From Streptomyces sp. SCL15-4 (GTDB lineage: Bacteria; Actinomycetota; Actinomycetes; Streptomycetales; Streptomycetaceae), in assembly GCF_033366695.1 (NCBI RefSeq), contig NZ_JAOBTQ010000001.1:2294001-2358000 (forward strand): a DNA stretch of 64,000 nucleotides, given 5' to 3'. The position numbers and the translations under genes are program-made. Below are positions 11,827 through 61,465 of this stretch, piece after piece (the stretch's first letter is position 1; each line of letters starts with the position of its first letter). The notes beneath the pieces were generated by a model that ran no database searches, was not told the DNA's origin, and worked only from the letters and a program-made list of their open reading frames with translations.

Positions 11827-11861
11827 ACCCGGACGGACGGACGGCCGAGCCGGGACGGGAC

Positions 11862-11903
11862 ACGCGGAAGGGCGCCCTTGGTGACAAGGGCGCCCTTCCG
11901 CGT
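11862..11903. terminator. Perfect 19-bp hairpin after the RCK pair
   Basis: ACGCGGAAGGGCGCCCTTG (11862-11880) pairs perfectly with CAAGGGCGCCCTTCCGCGT (11885-11903) around GTGA. It separates the RCK operon from the convergent DUF3159 gene and can act on both strands. Confidence 0.9.
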
Positions 11904-12004
11904 CGTACGACGGCTGCTCGTGGCCGTACGACGGGCGGCTGCTCGTGGGCCGTACGACGGCGTTCGCCGGCTACGGCAGCGGCTCGCCGCCGTAGGACGG
12001 CTGC
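11901..12004. repeat. Short direct repeats between terminator and the DUF3159 gene end
   Basis: The motif CGTACGACGG followed by GCTGCTCGTGG recurs two to three times (about 11904-11960), each copy slightly changed. It lies outside any gene, downstream of both converging transcripts. It may be slippage debris or an extension of the terminator region. Confidence 0.45.
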
Positions 12005-43897: not shown

Positions 43898-46354
43898 ATG
43901 GCCCGCCGCAGCACGAAGACCCCGCCGCCCGACGATTCGTTCGAGGAGAGAATCCTCGACATCGACGTCGTGGACGAGATGCGTGGCTCCTACCTCGAGT
44001 ACGCGTACTCGGTCATCTACTCGCGCGCCCTGCCGGACGCCCGTGACGGCCTGAAACCGGTGCACCGCCGGATCGTTTACCAGATGAACGAGATGGGCCT
44101 GCGCCCCGAACGCGGCTATGTGAAGTGCGCGCGCGTCGTCGGCGAGGTCATGGGCAAGCTCCACCCGCACGGCGACGCGTCGATCTACGACGCGCTGGTG
44201 CGCATGGCGCAGCCCTTCTCCATGCGCGTGCCGCTCGTCGACGGCCACGGCAACTTCGGTTCGCTGGGCAACGACGACCCGCCGGCCGCCATGCGGTACA
44301 CCGAGTGCCGGATGGCCGAGGCGACGGGCCTGATGACGGAGTCGATCGACGAGGACACGGTCGACTTCGCACCGAACTACGACGGCCAGGAGCAGGAGCC
44401 GGTGGCCCTGCCCGCCGCCTTCCCGAACCTGCTGGTCAACGGCTCATCGGGCATCGCGGTCGGCATGGCGACGAACATGCCGCCGCACAACCTGCGCGAG
44501 GTCATCGCCGCCGCCCGCCATCTGATCCGGCAGCCGAACGCCGACCTGGACGCGCTGATGAAGCACGTCCCGGGACCCGACCTGCCCACCGGCGGCCGGA
44601 TCGTCGGCCTGGACGGCATCCGGGACGCGTACGCGACCGGCCGCGGCACCTTCAAGATCCGCGCGACGGTCTCCATCGAGGACTTCACCGCCCGCCGCAA
44701 GGGCCTGGTGGTCACGGAACTGCCGTTCACCGTCGGCCCCGAGAAGGTCATCGCGAAGATCAAGGACCTGGTCAACGCGAAGAAGGTCCAGGGCATCGCC
44801 GACGTCAAGGACCTCACCGACCGCGAGCACGGCCTGCGTCTGGTCGTCGAGATCAAGAACGGCTTCGTGCCGGAGGCGATCCTGGAGCAGCTCTACAAGC
44901 TGACTCCGATGGAGGAGTCCTTCGGCATCAACAACGTCGCCCTGGTCGACGGCCAGCCGCTCACCCTGGGTCTGAAGGAGCTGCTGGAGGTCTATCTGGA
45001 CCACCGGTTCGACGTGGTCCGGCGGCGCAGCGAGTTCCGCCGCGGCAAGAAGCGCGACCGGCTGCACCTGGTCGAGGGTCTGCTGACCGCGCTGGTCGAC
45101 ATCGACGAGGTCATCCGGATCATCCGGTCCAGCGAGAACTCCGCGCAGGCCAAGGAGCGCCTGATCGAGCGCTTCTCGCTGAGCGAGGTACAGACGCAGT
45201 ACATCCTCGACACGCCGCTGCGCCGGCTCACCAAGTACGACCGGATCGAGCTGGAGGCGGAGAAGGACAAGCTCACCGCGGAGATCGAGGAGCTGACCCG
45301 GATCCTGGAGTCCGACGCGGAGCTGCGCAAGCTGGTCTCGGCGGAACTGGCGGCCGTGGCGAAGAAGTTCGGCACCGACCGGCGCACGGTCCTGCTGGAG
45401 TCCGCGGCCACTCCGGTCGCCGTGCCGCTGCAGGTGGCCGACGACCCGTGCCGGGTGCTGCTGTCCTCGACGGGGCTGCTGGCCCGTACGGCGACCGACG
45501 CGCCGCTTCCGCGGGCGGCGGGCGGCAAGCGGGTCAAGCACGACGTGATCGTCTCGGCTGTGCGGACGACCGCGCGCGGGGTGATCGGGGCGGTGACCTC
45601 GGCGGGCCGGCTGCTGCGCATCAACGTCGTCGACCTGCCGCAGCTGCCCGAGCCGGTGGGCGCGCCGAACCTCTCCGGCGGGGCGCCGCTGGCGGAGTTC
45701 GTCTCTCTGGAGGACGACGAGACGCTGGTCTGCCTGACCACGCTGGACGAGTCGTCGCCGGGCCTGGCGCTCGGCACCGAGCAGGGCGTCGTCAAGCGGG
45801 TGGTGCCCGACTATCCGTCCAACAAGGACGAGTTGGAGGTCATCACGCTCAAGGAGGGCGACCGGATCGTCGGCGCGGTGGAGCTGCGCACCGGCGAGGA
45901 GGACCTGGTGTTCATCACGGACGACGCGCAGCTGCTGCGTTTCCAGGCCTCCATCGTCCGCCCGCAGGGCCGCCCGGCGGGCGGCATGGCGGGCATCAAG
46001 CTCACCGAGGGCGCGAAGGTGATCTCCTTCACGGCGGTCGACCCGGCCGCCGACGCGGTGGTGTTCACGGTGGCGGGCTCGCGCGGCACGCTGGACGACT
46101 CGGTGCAGACGACGGCCAAGCTGACCCCGTTCGACCAGTACCCGCGCAAGGGCCGGGCCACGGGCGGGGTGCGCTGCCAGCGGTTCCTGAAGGGCGAGGA
46201 CTGCCTCTCGGTGGCCTGGGCGGGCCCGGCGCCGGCCCGGGCGGCACAGAAGAACGGCACCCCGGCGGAGCTGCCGGAACCGGACCCGCGCCGGGACGGC
46301 TCGGGCACGTCACTGCCGAAGACGGTGGCGGTGGTGGCGGGACCGGTGCTCTAG
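43898..46354 (+). CDS. parC: Topoisomerase IV subunit A (gyrase-A-like)
   Basis: An 818-residue type IIA topoisomerase A subunit. The DNA-cleavage tyrosine is in [10 protein letters not shown] (about Y134); the winged-helix region contains [14 protein letters not shown], and the C-terminal DNA-wrapping beta-propeller starts near residue 500 with six blade-like repeats (for example [20 protein letters not shown]). Streptomyces has this second GyrA-like gene besides gyrA, acting with the parE product encoded about 10 kb away. In the quinolone-resistance region the Ser83-equivalent of E. coli GyrA is alanine (A94), as in mycobacterial GyrA. The propeller ends with a proline-rich tail. Confidence 0.93.
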
Positions 46355-46360
46355 CGACCC

Positions 46361-46935
46361 GGGCGGAAGCCCGGCAGGGCGACTCGGGCGGAAGCCCGGC
46401 AGGACGGCCGGGGCCGGAGCCCAGCACGACGGCCCGAGCCAAGAGCCTGACAGGACGGCCGGGGCCGGCAGCCCGGCAGGGCGATCCGAGCCGGAGCCTG
46501 GCAGGGTGGCCGGACGGAAGCCAGGGAGGGTGGCCCGAGCGGAAGCTCCGCAGGGCGATCCGAGCCGGAGCCTGGCATAGGGGCCGGACGGAAGCCGGGG
46601 AGGGTGACCGAGCGGAAGCCCGACACGGCAACCCGAGCAGGAGCCCGACAGGACCGCCCGGGCCGAAGCCCGAGACGGCGCCCCGAGCCGGAGCCCGGCA
46701 CGGGGCCCGGGTGGGTGCCCGGGTGGGTGACCCGAGCGGAAGCCCGAGCCGAAGCCCGGCACGGCGGCCCGGGCGGAAGCCCCGCAGTACGACCCGGGCC
46801 AAGAGCCTGACAGCACGGCCCGGGCCGGCAGCCCGGCAGGGCGATCCGAGCCGAAGCCTGGCAGGGTGGCCGGACGGAGGCCCCGCAGGGCGGCCCGGGC
46901 CGGAGCCGGCAGGACGGCCCGGGCGGAGGCTAGAG
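46361..46935. repeat. Tandem array of about 23 imperfect 25-bp units
   Basis: Directly after the parC stop the DNA consists of units of 24-26 bases, most beginning GCCCGGCAGG or GCCTGGCAGG and ending GAGCCGGA or GGGCGGAA. Length changes between units exclude a continuous protein reading. There is a higher-order repeat as well: the 77-79 bases from 46441 recur from 46801, exactly 360 bases on, with about three differences, and part of it recurs about 73 bases further on near 46551. The array ends just before the convergent CobW-type gene stop. Units are partly self-complementary, so transcripts could fold into many small stems. Confidence 0.9.
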
Positions 46936-46953
46936 GGGCGACCCGGGTGGGGA

Positions 46954-48045
46954 CTAGAGGGGCGGCTCCGCCAGGTCGGCTGCCGCCTCGTCCTCGTCCG
47001 GTCCCTGTACGTAGCGCAGGACGCCCCACATGCCGTGCTCGTCGGCGTGCGGGGTGTCGTTCGCGCAGGCCTCCAGTTCCTTGCGGAGGGCGGCCGCGTC
47101 GATGCCGGAGCCGATCAGCACGAGCTGGGTGAGCCGGTCGTCACCGGGTGCCCAGGGTTCCGGGTAGAAGCGCAGGAACCGGCCGACGGCGTGCACGGTG
47201 TAGCGGTTGAACGTGTCGTACGGCCCGAAGTCGACGTATCCCTTGATCCGGTACAGCCCCTCGGGCCGGCTGTCCAGGAACCGCATGAGCCGCCGGGGCT
47301 CCAGAGGGACGGCGGAGGTGTGGGACAGGCTGTCGTAGCCGGTGTGCAGGTGCCCGGCCCCGCCCGGGTCCCCGTGGTCGTGCAGGTCCTCGAAGGACAG
47401 CTGGCCGATGCGCTCCTCGGTCGGCCGGCAGTCGAAGAGGAACTCGGGATCGATCCTGCCGTAGGTGGCGGGCACGACGGCCGCGCGGTCGGTGAGCGAG
47501 CGGACGAGCCCGAGGACCCGGTCGGCGTCGGCGGCGCGGTCGAGCTTGTTGACGACGACCAGGTCGGCGAGCGCGAGGTGCCGGTCGATCTCCGGATGCT
47601 TCGCGCGCGTGCCGTCGAACTCGGCGGCGTCGACCACCTCGACCAGGCCGCCGTAGACGATGCCGGGGTGCTCGCTGGCCAGGACCATGCGCACGAGTTC
47701 CTGGGGTTCGGCGAGTCCGCTGGCCTCGATGACGATCACGTCGATGCCGGCGGCGGGCGCGGCGAGCCGGTCCAGGTACAGGTCGAGTTCCCCGGCGTCG
47801 ACGGCGCAGCACAGGCAGCCGTTGCCGAGCGAGACGGTCGAGTCGCCGAGAGCGCCGGCGACGGCCATCGCGTCGATCTCGATGGCGCCGAAGTCGTTGA
47901 CGATGGCCCCGATGCGACTGCCTCCGCTGCGGTGCAGCAGGTGGTTGAGGAGCGTGGTCTTCCCGGAACCCAGAAAACCGGCGAGCACGACGACCGGAAT
48001 CTGCCGCGGACCGCCGCCGCTTCCGCTTACCAAGCTGTTCCCCAA
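46954..48045 (-). CDS. CobW/COG0523-family GTPase (metallochaperone type)
   Basis: A 363-residue G3E GTPase. The P-loop is AGFLGSGKTTLLNHLL; the metal motif is GNGCLCCAV (CxCC); IEASGLAEPQEL is switch-like, NKLD the guanine specificity motif, and the CobW_C domain starts near residue 245 with RLMRFLDSRP. Members deliver zinc or cobalt to client enzymes under metal shortage. No clear Zur box was seen upstream. Start TTG 48045 has AGAGG seven bases upstream. The gene converges on parC with the repeat array between. Confidence 0.9.
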   Translation of the reverse strand: MGNSLVSGSGGGPRQIPVVVLAGFLGSGKTTLLNHLLHRSGGSRIGAIVNDFGAIEIDAMAVAGALGDSTVSLGNGCLCCAVDAGELDLYLDRLAAPAAGIDVIVIEASGLAEPQELVRMVLASEHPGIVYGGLVEVVDAAEFDGTRAKHPEIDRHLALADLVVVNKLDRAADADRVLGLVRSLTDRAAVVPATYGRIDPEFLFDCRPTEERIGQLSFEDLHDHGDPGGAGHLHTGYDSLSHTSAVPLEPRRLMRFLDSRPEGLYRIKGYVDFGPYDTFNRYTVHAVGRFLRFYPEPWAPGDDRLTQLVLIGSGIDAAALRKELEACANDTPHADEHGMWGVLRYVQGPDEDEAAADLAEPPL

Positions 48046-56032: not shown

Positions 56033-58156
56033 CTACGCGTCGATGCGGGACCGGTCCAGCGTCGCCGCGGAGCTGGAGATGAACTCCTTCCGAGGCGCCA
56101 CGTCATTGCCCATCAGCAAGTCGAAGACCTGCTCGGCGGCCTCCAGGTCGGAGAGGTTGATGCGGCGCAGGGTGCGGTGGCGCGGGTCCATCGTGGTCTC
56201 GGCCAGCTGGTCGGCGTCCATCTCGCCGAGGCCCTTGTAGCGCTGGATCGAATCCTTGTACCGGATGCCCTTGCTCTGGAATTCCATGAGCTTGTCGCGC
56301 AGCTCGCGGTCGGAGTACGTGTAGACGTACTTCTCCTGGCCCTTCTTCGGCTGGATCAGCTCGATGCGGTGCAGCGGCGGCACGGCGGCGAAGACCCGGC
56401 CCGCCTCGACCATGGGCCGCATGTAGCGCTGGAACAGCGTCAGCAGCAGACAGCGGATGTGCGAGCCGTCCACGTCGGCGTCGGTCATCATGATGATCTT
56501 GCCGTACCGGGCCTGGTCGATGTCGAAGGTGCGGCCCGAGCCGGCTCCTATGACCTGGATGATCGCCCCGCACTCGGCGTTCTTGAGCATGTCGGTCACC
56601 GACGACCGCTGCACGTTCAGGATCTTGCCGCGGATCGGGAGCAGGGCCTGGAACTCGGAGTTCCGCGCCAGCTTGGCCGTACCGAGCGCGGAGTCGCCCT
56701 CGACGATGAACAGCTCGCTGCGGTCGACGTCGTCGCTGCGGCAGTCGGCGAGCTTGGCCGGCAGGGACGAGGACTCCAGGGCGGTCTTCCGGCGCTGGGC
56801 GTCCTTGTGCTGGCGGGCCGCGACCCGGGTGCGGGCGGCGGCGACCACCTTCTCCATGACGACCCGGGCCTGGGCGGCGGCGTCCCGCTTGGTGGCCGTC
56901 AGGAACGCCTTCAGCTCGCTGCCGACCACATTGTTCACGATGCGGCGGGCCGCCGAGGTGCCGAGGACCTCCTTGGTCTGTCCCTCGAACTGCGGCTCGG
57001 CCAGGCGGACCGTGACGACGGCGGTCAGGCCCTCCAGGGCGTCGTCCTTGACGATGTTGTCCTCGGCGACGCGCAGCAGCTTCTTGGCGCGCAGCACGTC
57101 GTTCATGGTCTGGGTGAGGGCCTGTTCGAAGCCGGCGACGTGGGTGCCGCCCTTGGGGGTGGCGATGATGTTGACGAACGACCTGACCGTCGTGTCGTAG
57201 CCGGTCCCCCAGCGCAGCGCGATGTCGACGCCCAGCTCGCGGGTTACCTCGGTCGGGGTCATCTGGCCGTGTTCGTCCAGAACCGGGACGGTCTCCTTGA
57301 AGGTGCCCTTGCCCGAGAAGCGGAGGACGTCGCAGATCGCCCTGTCGTTCGCCAGATACTCGCAGAACTCGCTGATGCCGCCGTCGAAGCGGAAGGACTC
57401 CTCGCCCTTGCTCCCGCCCTCGCCGAGGCCCAGCTCGTCGCGGACGACGATGGTCAGGCCGGGCACCAGGAACGCGGTCTGCCGGGCGCGCTGGTGCAGG
57501 GTCTCCAGGGAGAGCTTGGCGTCCTTGAGGAAGATCTGCCGGTCGGCCCAGTAACGCACGCGCGTGCCGGTGCGCGTCTTGGGGACCTTCTTGGTCTTGC
57601 GCAGGCCGCTCTTGGCCTCGAACTTCGCCTCGGCCCCGTCGGCGGCGAAGGCACCGGGCACGCCCCGCCGGAAGCTGATCGCGTGCGTGTGGCCGCCGCG
57701 GTCCACTTCGACGTCGAGACGGGCGGAGAGCGCGTTGACCACGGAGGCGCCGACGCCGTGCAGGCCGCCGGAGGCCGCGTAGGACCCGCCGCCGAACTTG
57801 CCGCCGGCGTGCAGCTTGGTCATGACGACCTCGACTCCGGACAGGCCGGTCCGCGGCTCCACGTCCACGGGGATGCCGCGGCCGTTGTCCCGCACCTCCA
57901 CCGAGCCGTCGTCGTGAAGGATCACCTCGATGTGGTCGCAGACACCCGCGAGGGCCTCGTCCACCGAGTTGTCGATGATCTCCCACAGGCAGTGCATGAG
58001 GCCGCGACTGTCGGTCGAGCCGATGTACATACCGGGGCGTTTGCGCACGGCCTCAAGGCCCTCGAGGACGAGCAGGTGCCGCGCGGTGTAGTTGGAACCG
58101 TCGCGGTCTGCTCCTGCCAGCAGAGCTGTGGACGGCACGGACGTCTCGGCGGTCAC
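56033..58156 (-). CDS. parE: Topoisomerase IV subunit B (gyrase-B-like)
   Basis: A 707-residue ATPase subunit. The GHKL pocket shows EIIDNSVDEALAG, VRDNGRGIPVDV and SGGLHGVGASVVNALS; the Toprim domain carries FIVEGDSALGTAKLAR, MTDADVDGSHIRCLLL, and RYKGLGEMDADQLAETTM. With the parC product it forms topoisomerase IV, which separates linked daughter chromosomes. Start GTG 58156 has AGGAG eight bases upstream. ParE and parC are transcribed in opposite directions and lie about 10 kb apart. Confidence 0.94.
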   Translation of the reverse strand: MTAETSVPSTALLAGADRDGSNYTARHLLVLEGLEAVRKRPGMYIGSTDSRGLMHCLWEIIDNSVDEALAGVCDHIEVILHDDGSVEVRDNGRGIPVDVEPRTGLSGVEVVMTKLHAGGKFGGGSYAASGGLHGVGASVVNALSARLDVEVDRGGHTHAISFRRGVPGAFAADGAEAKFEAKSGLRKTKKVPKTRTGTRVRYWADRQIFLKDAKLSLETLHQRARQTAFLVPGLTIVVRDELGLGEGGSKGEESFRFDGGISEFCEYLANDRAICDVLRFSGKGTFKETVPVLDEHGQMTPTEVTRELGVDIALRWGTGYDTTVRSFVNIIATPKGGTHVAGFEQALTQTMNDVLRAKKLLRVAEDNIVKDDALEGLTAVVTVRLAEPQFEGQTKEVLGTSAARRIVNNVVGSELKAFLTATKRDAAAQARVVMEKVVAAARTRVAARQHKDAQRRKTALESSSLPAKLADCRSDDVDRSELFIVEGDSALGTAKLARNSEFQALLPIRGKILNVQRSSVTDMLKNAECGAIIQVIGAGSGRTFDIDQARYGKIIMMTDADVDGSHIRCLLLTLFQRYMRPMVEAGRVFAAVPPLHRIELIQPKKGQEKYVYTYSDRELRDKLMEFQSKGIRYKDSIQRYKGLGEMDADQLAETTMDPRHRTLRRINLSDLEAAEQVFDLLMGNDVAPRKEFISSSAATLDRSRIDA

Positions 58157-59908: not shown

Positions 59909-61465
59909 TTAGTCGAGGTAGTCGCGCAGCACCTGGGAGCGCGACGGGTGGCGCAGCTTCGACATGGTCTTGGACTCGATCTGGCGGATGCGCTCACGCG
60001 TCACGCCGTAGACCTTGCCGATCTCGTCGAGGGTCTTCGGCTGACCGTCGGTGAGACCGAAGCGCATGGAGACGACGCCGGCCTCGCGCTCGGACAGGGT
60101 GTCCAGGACGGAGTGCAGCTGCTCCTGAAGGAGTGTGAAGCTGACCGCGTCAGCAGGCACGACGGCCTCGGAGTCCTCGATGAGGTCACCGAACTCGCTG
60201 TCGCCGTCCTCGCCCAGCGGGGTGTGCAGGGAGATGGGCTCACGACCGTACTTCTGGACCTCGATGACCTTCTCAGGGGTCATGTCGAGTTCCTTGGCCA
60301 GCTCCTCCGGAGTGGGCTCGCGGCCCAGGTCCTGGAGCATCTGGCGCTGCACGCGCGCGAGCTTGTTGATGACCTCGACCATGTGCACCGGGATACGGAT
60401 GGTGCGGGCCTGGTCGGCCATGGCGCGGGTGATCGCCTGACGGATCCACCAGGTGGCGTACGTGGAGAACTTGTAGCCCTTGGTGTAGTCGAACTTCTCG
60501 ACCGCGCGGATCAGACCGAGGTTGCCTTCCTGGATGAGGTCCAGGAAGAGCATGCCGCGGCCGGTGTAGCGCTTGGCCAGGGAGACCACCAGGCGGAGGT
60601 TGGCCTCCAGGAGGTGGTTCTTGGCGCGGCGGCCGTCCTCCGCGATGATCTCCAGCTCGCGCTTGAGCTTCGGGGCGAGCTTGTCGGAGTTGGCGAGCTT
60701 GTCCTCGGCGAAGAGACCGGCCTCGATGCGCTTGGCCAGCTCGACCTCCTGCTCGGCGTTGAGCAGGGGGACCTTGCCGATCTGCTTCAGGTAGTCCTTG
60801 ACCGGGTCGGCGGTGGCGCCGGCCGCGGCGACCTGCTGCGCGGGCGCGTCGTCCTCGTCCTCGTCGGACAGGACGAAACCGGCGCTCTCGGTGCCCTCGG
60901 GCTCGTCGGCGACCTTGGTGTCCTCGAGAACCTCGTCCTCGAGAAGCTCGACGTCGTCCTTCTTGGCGGTGGTCTTCTTGGCGGCCGTCGCCTTCTTCGC
61001 GACGGTCTTCTTGGCGGTCGCCTTCTTGGCGGCCGTCGTCTTCTTCGCGGCAGCCTTCCTGGCGGTGGCGGCTTCCTCGGCGGAATCGGCGGAATCAGCT
61101 GCGGACGCGGCGGTGGGCGCCGCGGGGGCGGCCGTGGTGGCGGTGGCCTTCCTGGTGGTCACCGTCTTCGCCGCGACCGTCCTGGTGGCGGTGCGCTTGG
61201 CCGGGCTCTTCGCTGCGACGCTCTTGCGGGTGCGCTTGGGCTCTGCGGCACTGACCATCAGCGTCACACCCTCTTCCTCAAGGATCTGGTTGAGGCTGCG
61301 CAGTACGTTCTTCCACTGAGTGGCCGGAATCTGGTCAGCTTCGAAGGCCCGACGCACATCGTCGCCGGCGATCTGCCCCTCAGCCTTTCCCCGCTCAATG
61401 AGCGCCATGACAGAGACGGACTCGGCGATCTCCGGCGGGAGCGTACGGGATGTGCTGGCCGACAC
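59909..61465 (-). CDS. hrdB: Principal RNA polymerase sigma factor HrdB
   Basis: A 518-residue sigma-70. The N-terminal half is Lys/Ala/Thr-rich ([20 protein letters not shown]) and continues into acidic [11 protein letters not shown]; region 1.2 starts [20 protein letters not shown]; region 2 has [20 protein letters not shown] and [17 protein letters not shown]; region 4 has [20 protein letters not shown]. The end [15 protein letters not shown] is that of HrdB. It directs transcription of housekeeping genes. Start GTG 61465 has GAGAGG at six bases; codons further upstream belong to the leader. Confidence 0.97.

Follow-up and report, generated by a model that had tools for sequence, protein, structure and literature searches.

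The window, a stretch of 64,000 bases from the chromosome of Streptomyces sp. SCL15-4 (genome of 8.42 Mb in 2 contigs, 99.97% complete), contains two convergent genes whose ends are separated by tandemly repeated DNA. The first gene, parC (43898–46354, + strand), encodes topoisomerase IV subunit A (Pfam PF00521, E 3.9e-157; PF03989, E 4.4e-16). Its stop codon TAG (46352–46354) directly abuts the array, and its C-terminal codons are alike in the close relatives compared. The second gene belongs to the cobW family (46954–48045, - strand; PF02492, E 4.3e-43; PF07683, E 1.7e-19) and converges with parC, with its stop codon at 46954–46956. About 10 kb from parC, a gyrase-B-type topoisomerase gene lies on the opposite strand (56036–58156); this gene is probably parE. 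The closest full-length parC among the named loci retained comes from S. eurythermus (98% protein identity, 97% DNA identity). The parC of Streptomyces sp. WELS2 equals S. eurythermus in closeness over residues 1–776, where the WELS2 contig ends.

The 599 bases between parC and cobW (46355–46953) consist entirely of imperfect units of 24–26 bases, arranged head to tail. TRF reported a period of 25 bases at 46354–46746 (15.8 copies, score 229) and again at 46742–46924 (7.3 copies, score 166), as well as a 24-base pair at 46918–46964 (2.0 copies, 86% matches). With wrap-around segmentation, 25 unit rows were obtained from 46358 to 46965. Twenty-three of them are 24–26 bases long and two, at 46731 and 46749, are truncated to 18 and 19 bases; besides these rows, only 3 leading and 10 trailing bases are left. 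An initial annotation of this DNA had described around 23 imperfect units of 24–26 bases filling the space between the two convergent genes. Both the count and the filling were borne out, but the end it gave, 46935, was not: the array runs to 46965, twelve bases into cobW, and its last unit takes in the cobW stop codon and final codons. On the basis of TRF, segmentation and consensus, we therefore place the minisatellite at 46355–46965, assigned to neither strand and including the last 12 bases of cobW. The consensus of the unit, derived from 21 aligned rows, is CCCGAGCGGAAGCCCGGCAGGGCGG. The first unit (46358–46382, + strand), just 3' of the parC stop codon, can form a perfect 6-bp stem with a GGAA loop (predicted fold -13.1 kcal/mol). 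The last two units (46918–46964, + strand) each contain CTAGAGGGGCG, and the second copy of it is cobW's own stop and last codons.

Above the level of single units, longer copies were observed. Block A (46433–46519, + strand) recurs 360 bases further on as block B (46793–46879, + strand). A block repeated exactly at this distance had been proposed; the offset is correct, but the sequence is not identical, as 82 of 87 bases match. The longest exact run in this duplicate is 32 bases, and identity is 81% across 189 bases. In addition, three units together form a 74-base higher-order repeat at 46466–46703 (+ strand; TRF period 74, 3.2 copies, score 262). This is the best score within 46355–46953, whereas the best among 200 dinucleotide-preserving shuffles of the same interval was 69, and just 21 of these shuffles gave any TRF row. 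The array is therefore a non-chance repeat. Tandem head-to-tail units of about 10–100 bases are what defines a minisatellite, and the TRF period of 25 lies within this range. The array has a GC content of 79%, and the + strand of 46355–46953 contains 102 A and 22 T, a strong strand asymmetry of the kind expected if the array grew from one founder unit.

In order to compare the length of the array across species, a check that the initial annotation had proposed, we examined 129 loci, with one genome per species. Five loci could not be measured (L036, L047 and L081, on contigs that break off near the junction, plus L222 and L240); 120 records were left, 113 of them distinct by the sequence around the junction. 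In these 120 records, the gap between parC and cobW was zero or less in 68, 1–29 bases in 25, 30–99 in 18, 100–199 in eight and 286 in one. The 68 comprise 62 records at -4 and four at 0, plus two implausible values (-248 and -1473). Counted as distinct junctions, 63 of 113 have no gap at all: 59 lie at -4, with overlapping stop codons, and four at 0. The tetramer shared by the two genes in the 62 records at -4 (near-duplicates included) is CTAG in 51, CTAA in nine, and TTAG and TTAA in one each. No gap as long as 599 bases was found among the 113 distinct junctions measured, the maximum being 286, and the gap in S. eurythermus is only 40 bases. In the near relatives G205, G135 and G020, the end of parC matches and the array does not follow. 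When G126 was searched with the array region, a single weak match was obtained, and cobW neighbours another gene there. At this locus (L222, G126:C791), from a close relative, a co-directional gene lies approximately 230 bases downstream of cobW in place of parC; its product reads like an aspartase/fumarase, which we presume from the motif, and the arrangement represents either a rearrangement at the junction or a misassembly. As far as measured, the array is therefore lineage-specific and allows no general conclusion on topoisomerase IV.

The mean difference between units is 28%, and that between a unit and its nearest one is 11%. By comparison, divergence from S. eurythermus at 4-fold sites is 9% in parC and 16% in cobW. 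Since the units differ more than these sites do, and the S. eurythermus gap is so short, the array either predates the split from S. eurythermus and was lost there, or diverges faster than the third positions of genes.

The unusual part is the junction, at which relatives repeatedly grew their own, different repeats. TRF arrays were present in 14 of 27 gap records of at least 30 bases, where 15 mononucleotide shuffles per gap led to an expectation of 0.27. After removal of near-duplicates, repeats were found in 13 of 25 distinct gaps of at least 30 bases; in the relatives, their periods range from 11 to 59 bases and their units differ. In a 78-row parC tree, 12 rows (window included) carry repeats; they need 12 changes, at least nine of which are forced by supported branches, and they are unclustered (500 of 500 shuffles were as low). 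As controls, we chose three junctions that are convergent and short in the host genome (hemE, bfr and paaN). For each of them, 29 loci from relatives were taken, which gave 14, 29 and 22 distinct pairs, respectively. Gaps of at least 30 bases numbered five at bfr, ten at paaN and none at hemE, with one repeat each at bfr and paaN. Thus, repeat-bearing gaps amount to 13 of 25 at parC/cobW and to 2 of 15 at the controls (Fisher p 0.02), which are few and were selected by ourselves.

One explanation for DNA of this kind at convergent gene ends is a selected two-way terminator, in which the tandem small hairpins stop polymerase arriving from parC and from cobW and so separate the two transcripts. 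Folding is in favour of it. The array folds better than its shuffles on the + strand (z -3.5, beating 20 of 20 shuffles) and to a lesser extent on the - strand (z -1.7, 20 shuffles), its first unit is a perfect stem-loop, and the S. eurythermus gap (L033) folds strongly (z -5.0). Convergent gaps as a class do the same: the mean z was -2.0 in 50 gaps sampled from the host genome and -2.4 in 36 orthologous parC/cobW gaps (35 distinct), compared to -1.2 in divergent gaps, -0.4 in co-directional gaps and -0.2 in coding pieces. This predicted folding is in keeping with two-way terminators, as described in Streptomyces (PMC8269248). The units themselves, however, argue against selection for a hairpin. 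Stem positions were paired in 78.6% of cases versus 77.4% after column shuffling (p 0.27), one stem pair carries an uncompensated A-C mismatch in 10 of 21 rows, and change counts were not significantly uneven among columns (p 0.14); the covariation and column tests, which have low power, were run on 21 of the 25 unit rows after these had been edited to 25 columns. Furthermore, the longest T run in 46355–46953 is 1 and the longest A run is 2, and 63 of the 113 distinct junctions do without any gap. By its base runs, the array does not fit an intrinsic terminator (hairpin plus U-run). A maintained unit hairpin, as expected of a terminator lacking a U-run, was rejected for want of covariation, and conserved core columns were rejected because the unevenness was not significant. 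We consider a selected terminator unlikely; the terminator role suggested earlier is at most possible and gained no positive support, as the hairpins show no compensatory change and no T run exceeds 1. We conclude that a role in termination, if there is one, is of a generic kind and does not account for the repeats. The array would then be at most a spacer rich in GC, with weak hairpins that may contribute to ending transcription from either side.

A protein-binding or chromosome-organising array tied to topoisomerase IV, which had also been suggested, is highly improbable. Only the adjacency to parC and the regular spacing of approximately 25 bases point in this direction. In arrays like those of parS or matS, the motif is repeated across the chromosome or kept in place between species. 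Neither applies here: the core of the unit is not enriched in the genome, and no gap of comparable length occurs among the 113 distinct junctions measured. The proposed search of the genome was carried out. The whole array found itself and two weak, short matches only, and the unit core, allowing up to 2 mismatches, gave 205 matches genome-wide (the array's own copies counted) compared to 239 for the reversed control. A binding role is also left without positive support by the columns of the unit, none of which is significantly constrained (low power). REP/BIME-like elements occur in many copies around a genome; the same search excluded a dispersed unit of this type or a mobile one.

Array-like DNA (E ≤ 1e-6) was detected in 50 of 392 genomes, host genome included. 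We looked at 30 such loci (window included): 11 lie in called genes, four in convergent gaps (among them the window), four in divergent gaps, five between co-directional genes and six at edges. In the 11 loci inside called genes, every listed TRF period is a multiple of 3. With the loci scattered over gene contexts in this way, a genus-wide family of such arrays was dismissed in favour of mostly shared composition. Some arrays outside called genes in other Streptomyces nevertheless have units of 25–26 bases (L137 and L154 in convergent gaps, L159 in a divergent gap), a recurring length that may be a bias of the 25-base-periodic query. Another one (L140; G120:C6, approximately 6557049–6557870) lies between co-directional genes, with a 25-base unit in 48 copies over 1.2 kb and a higher-order period of 198 bases.

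In the host genome, such arrays are ordinary, and the one between parC and cobW is among the longer examples. In 1.26 Mb sampled as the window and 60 further stretches, there are non-genic arrays of at least 100 bases with periods of, for example, 20, 28, 31 and 37. Within this sample, repeats were found in 9 of 94 convergent, 11 of 142 divergent and 39 of 409 co-directional gaps of 30–800 bases, which indicates no convergent excess by count; as a share of gap bases, they make up 8.6% (the window's array included), 1.2% and 5.4%, respectively. A called convergent gap of the same genome (L169:6446–7123; G000:C1:3706446–3707123) harbours a 21-base unit in approximately 32 copies with higher-order periods of 63, 126 and 252 bases; since all of these are divisible by 3, it may be a repetitive gene that escaped gene calling. 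Two further repeats were noticed in the window. A 26-base unit occurs in two 96%-matching copies (11911–11960) in the convergent gap 11827–12004, and a coding repeat with periods of 15, 33 and 48 bases (60952–61069) is located N-terminally within a sigma-70 factor gene (59912–61465, - strand; regions 1.2, 2, 3 and 4), with a weak Pfam match to histone H1-like proteins under the cut-off.

Tandem repeats are prone to misassembly, and the array could in principle have been collapsed or expanded to a wrong copy number. Its units differ from one another, the genome is nearly complete in two contigs, and other assemblies have other repeats in the same gap; an artefact is therefore hardly to be expected. 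Known classes were excluded as well. The units abut without spacers and show a mean difference of 28%, so that the array is, as initially stated, not CRISPR, and Rfam covariance models gave no match up to E 1 in 45500–47800, which rules out a known structured RNA. Least probable of all is a coding repeat or an extension of parC or cobW: GC-rich frames stay open over long stretches and 3 of 6 array frames are stop-free, but the stop codons of both genes stand at the array edges, the unit length is not divisible by three, none of the relatives measured has a gap as long, and the codon score per codon is -0.35 to -0.54 in all six frames versus +0.52 for parC, which makes the array non-coding and agrees with the earlier view that it is not a protein repeat.

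How could such an array arise between two genes that mostly leave no room for it? We infer an origin by tandem duplication across shared stop codons. The ancestral parC/cobW junction probably had overlapping stops, mostly CTAG judging from the relatives. If two genes share a stop tetramer such as CTAG and a tandem duplication spans it, the product would be tail-CTAG-tail-tail-CTAG-tail, i.e., a spacer made of both gene tails between two whole proteins. Because both proteins would be unchanged, selection at the protein level would not remove such a duplication but leave it in place. Further growth could have proceeded by duplicating one unit, three units (74 bases) and approximately fourteen to fifteen units (360 bases), with slippage or unequal exchange as the presumed means, as the 25-, 74- and 360-base periods suggest. 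A limited open-access search of the literature found no account of a parC/cobW array or of shared-stop duplication.

A duplication of this kind predicts that the gap opens with a copy of the cobW tail in exact register. Indeed, the first 14 gap bases were at least 80% identical to the species' own cobW tail at register 0 in 3 of 41 gaps, and at each of 8 other registers in none of the 41. When the cobW tails of other species were used at register 0, the mean was 0.12 gaps, and three were never reached in 500 shuffles. Mean identity at register 0 was 0.376 with the own tail versus 0.342 (22 of 500 shuffles as high). In the aligned copies, 20 of 20 bases match in L041, 17 of 18 in L065 and 15 of 16 in L125. 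The cobW gene now stops at TGA in L041 and L125, so the shared tetramer must have changed there since the duplication. L125, one of the three in-register cases, has a gap of just 22 bases and no array. The counterpart for parC, a gap that ends in exact register with a copy of the species' own parC tail, was no commoner than in the control: at least 80% identity was found in 1 of 41 gaps, and 205 of 500 species shuffles equalled this. The parC-tail copy at the gap end of L066 matches in 13 of 14 bases.

When the register was left free, among 42 gaps including one near-duplicate pair, a cobW-tail copy with p ≤ 0.05 was found in 13, whether shuffled tails or other species' tails served as the control. 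For the parC tail, there were 7 of 42 gaps by shuffled tails and just 2 of 42 by other species' tails. At p ≤ 0.01, tail copies occurred in 9 of 41 parC/cobW gaps versus 2 of 29 at the control junctions, which is not a significant difference (p 0.11). At other convergent gaps of the host genome, 13 of 210 tests gave p ≤ 0.05, which is the chance level and gives no sign of tail copies as a general trait of convergent gaps there. The shared-stop mechanism thus holds for a few lineages at parC/cobW, and its generality is unsupported. In the window's own array, the copy of the cobW tail spans just 11 bases (p 0.13 versus shuffled tails) and the parC-tail match is weak (p 0.02, and 0.07 versus other species' tails). 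With these tests weak, a shared-stop birth of the window's array is carried over from the relatives; it would fit the CTAGAGGGGCG carried by the last two units.

Taken together, the array is likely a non-coding minisatellite of this lineage that arose by local tandem duplication at convergent gene ends and then grew, with no specific function needed. It is best read as a minisatellite that is largely neutral and serves at most as a structured spacer, and the slippage-expanded minisatellite that the initial annotation had named as its fallback turns out to be the best supported of its proposals. In itself the array is ordinary; the recurrence of repeats at the junction and the exact-register copies of the cobW tail are the noteworthy part. 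More tentatively, and with less than even confidence, we propose that convergent genes with overlapping stops could act as a protein-neutral trap for tandem duplications, and that parC/cobW may be a recurrent hot spot in Streptomyces at which one lineage after another acquires a new spacer and, in some cases, a terminator. These results remove a tempting false lead, namely a topoisomerase-linked or chromosome-organising array, and offer a testable explanation for the birth of spacer DNA in bacteria. Via shared-stop duplication, a compact convergent junction would gain intergenic DNA, possibly including a terminator, at no cost to the proteins. If true beyond parC/cobW, this would be relevant to the way in which overlapping convergent genes become separated again.

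The array resembles non-coding minisatellites or VNTRs of bacteria, as generally defined, in its imperfect head-to-tail units of tens of bases, its higher-order duplications and its being absent or different in close relatives. It is unlike them in that the parC/cobW junction bred other repeats in scattered lineages, a comparison made between species only. Tandem-repeat regions in the archaeal Borgs are described as being of recent and independent origin and as evolving rapidly (PMC9879509). The Borg repeats are pervasive in large extrachromosomal elements, whereas the repeats considered here lie at a single junction of a bacterial chromosome. For Streptomyces clavuligerus, the passages on bidirectional transcript ends report opposite transcripts ending between genes (PMC8269248). 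Both strands of our array are likewise predicted to form hairpins, but these are not kept from unit to unit. Finally, four-base convergent overlaps have been described with the tetramers CTAA, TTAA, CTAG and TTAG (PMC2174442), and the -4 junctions of parC and cobW use these same four. The main text of that study does without the word "duplication", whereas in the case presented here tandem copies replace the overlap.
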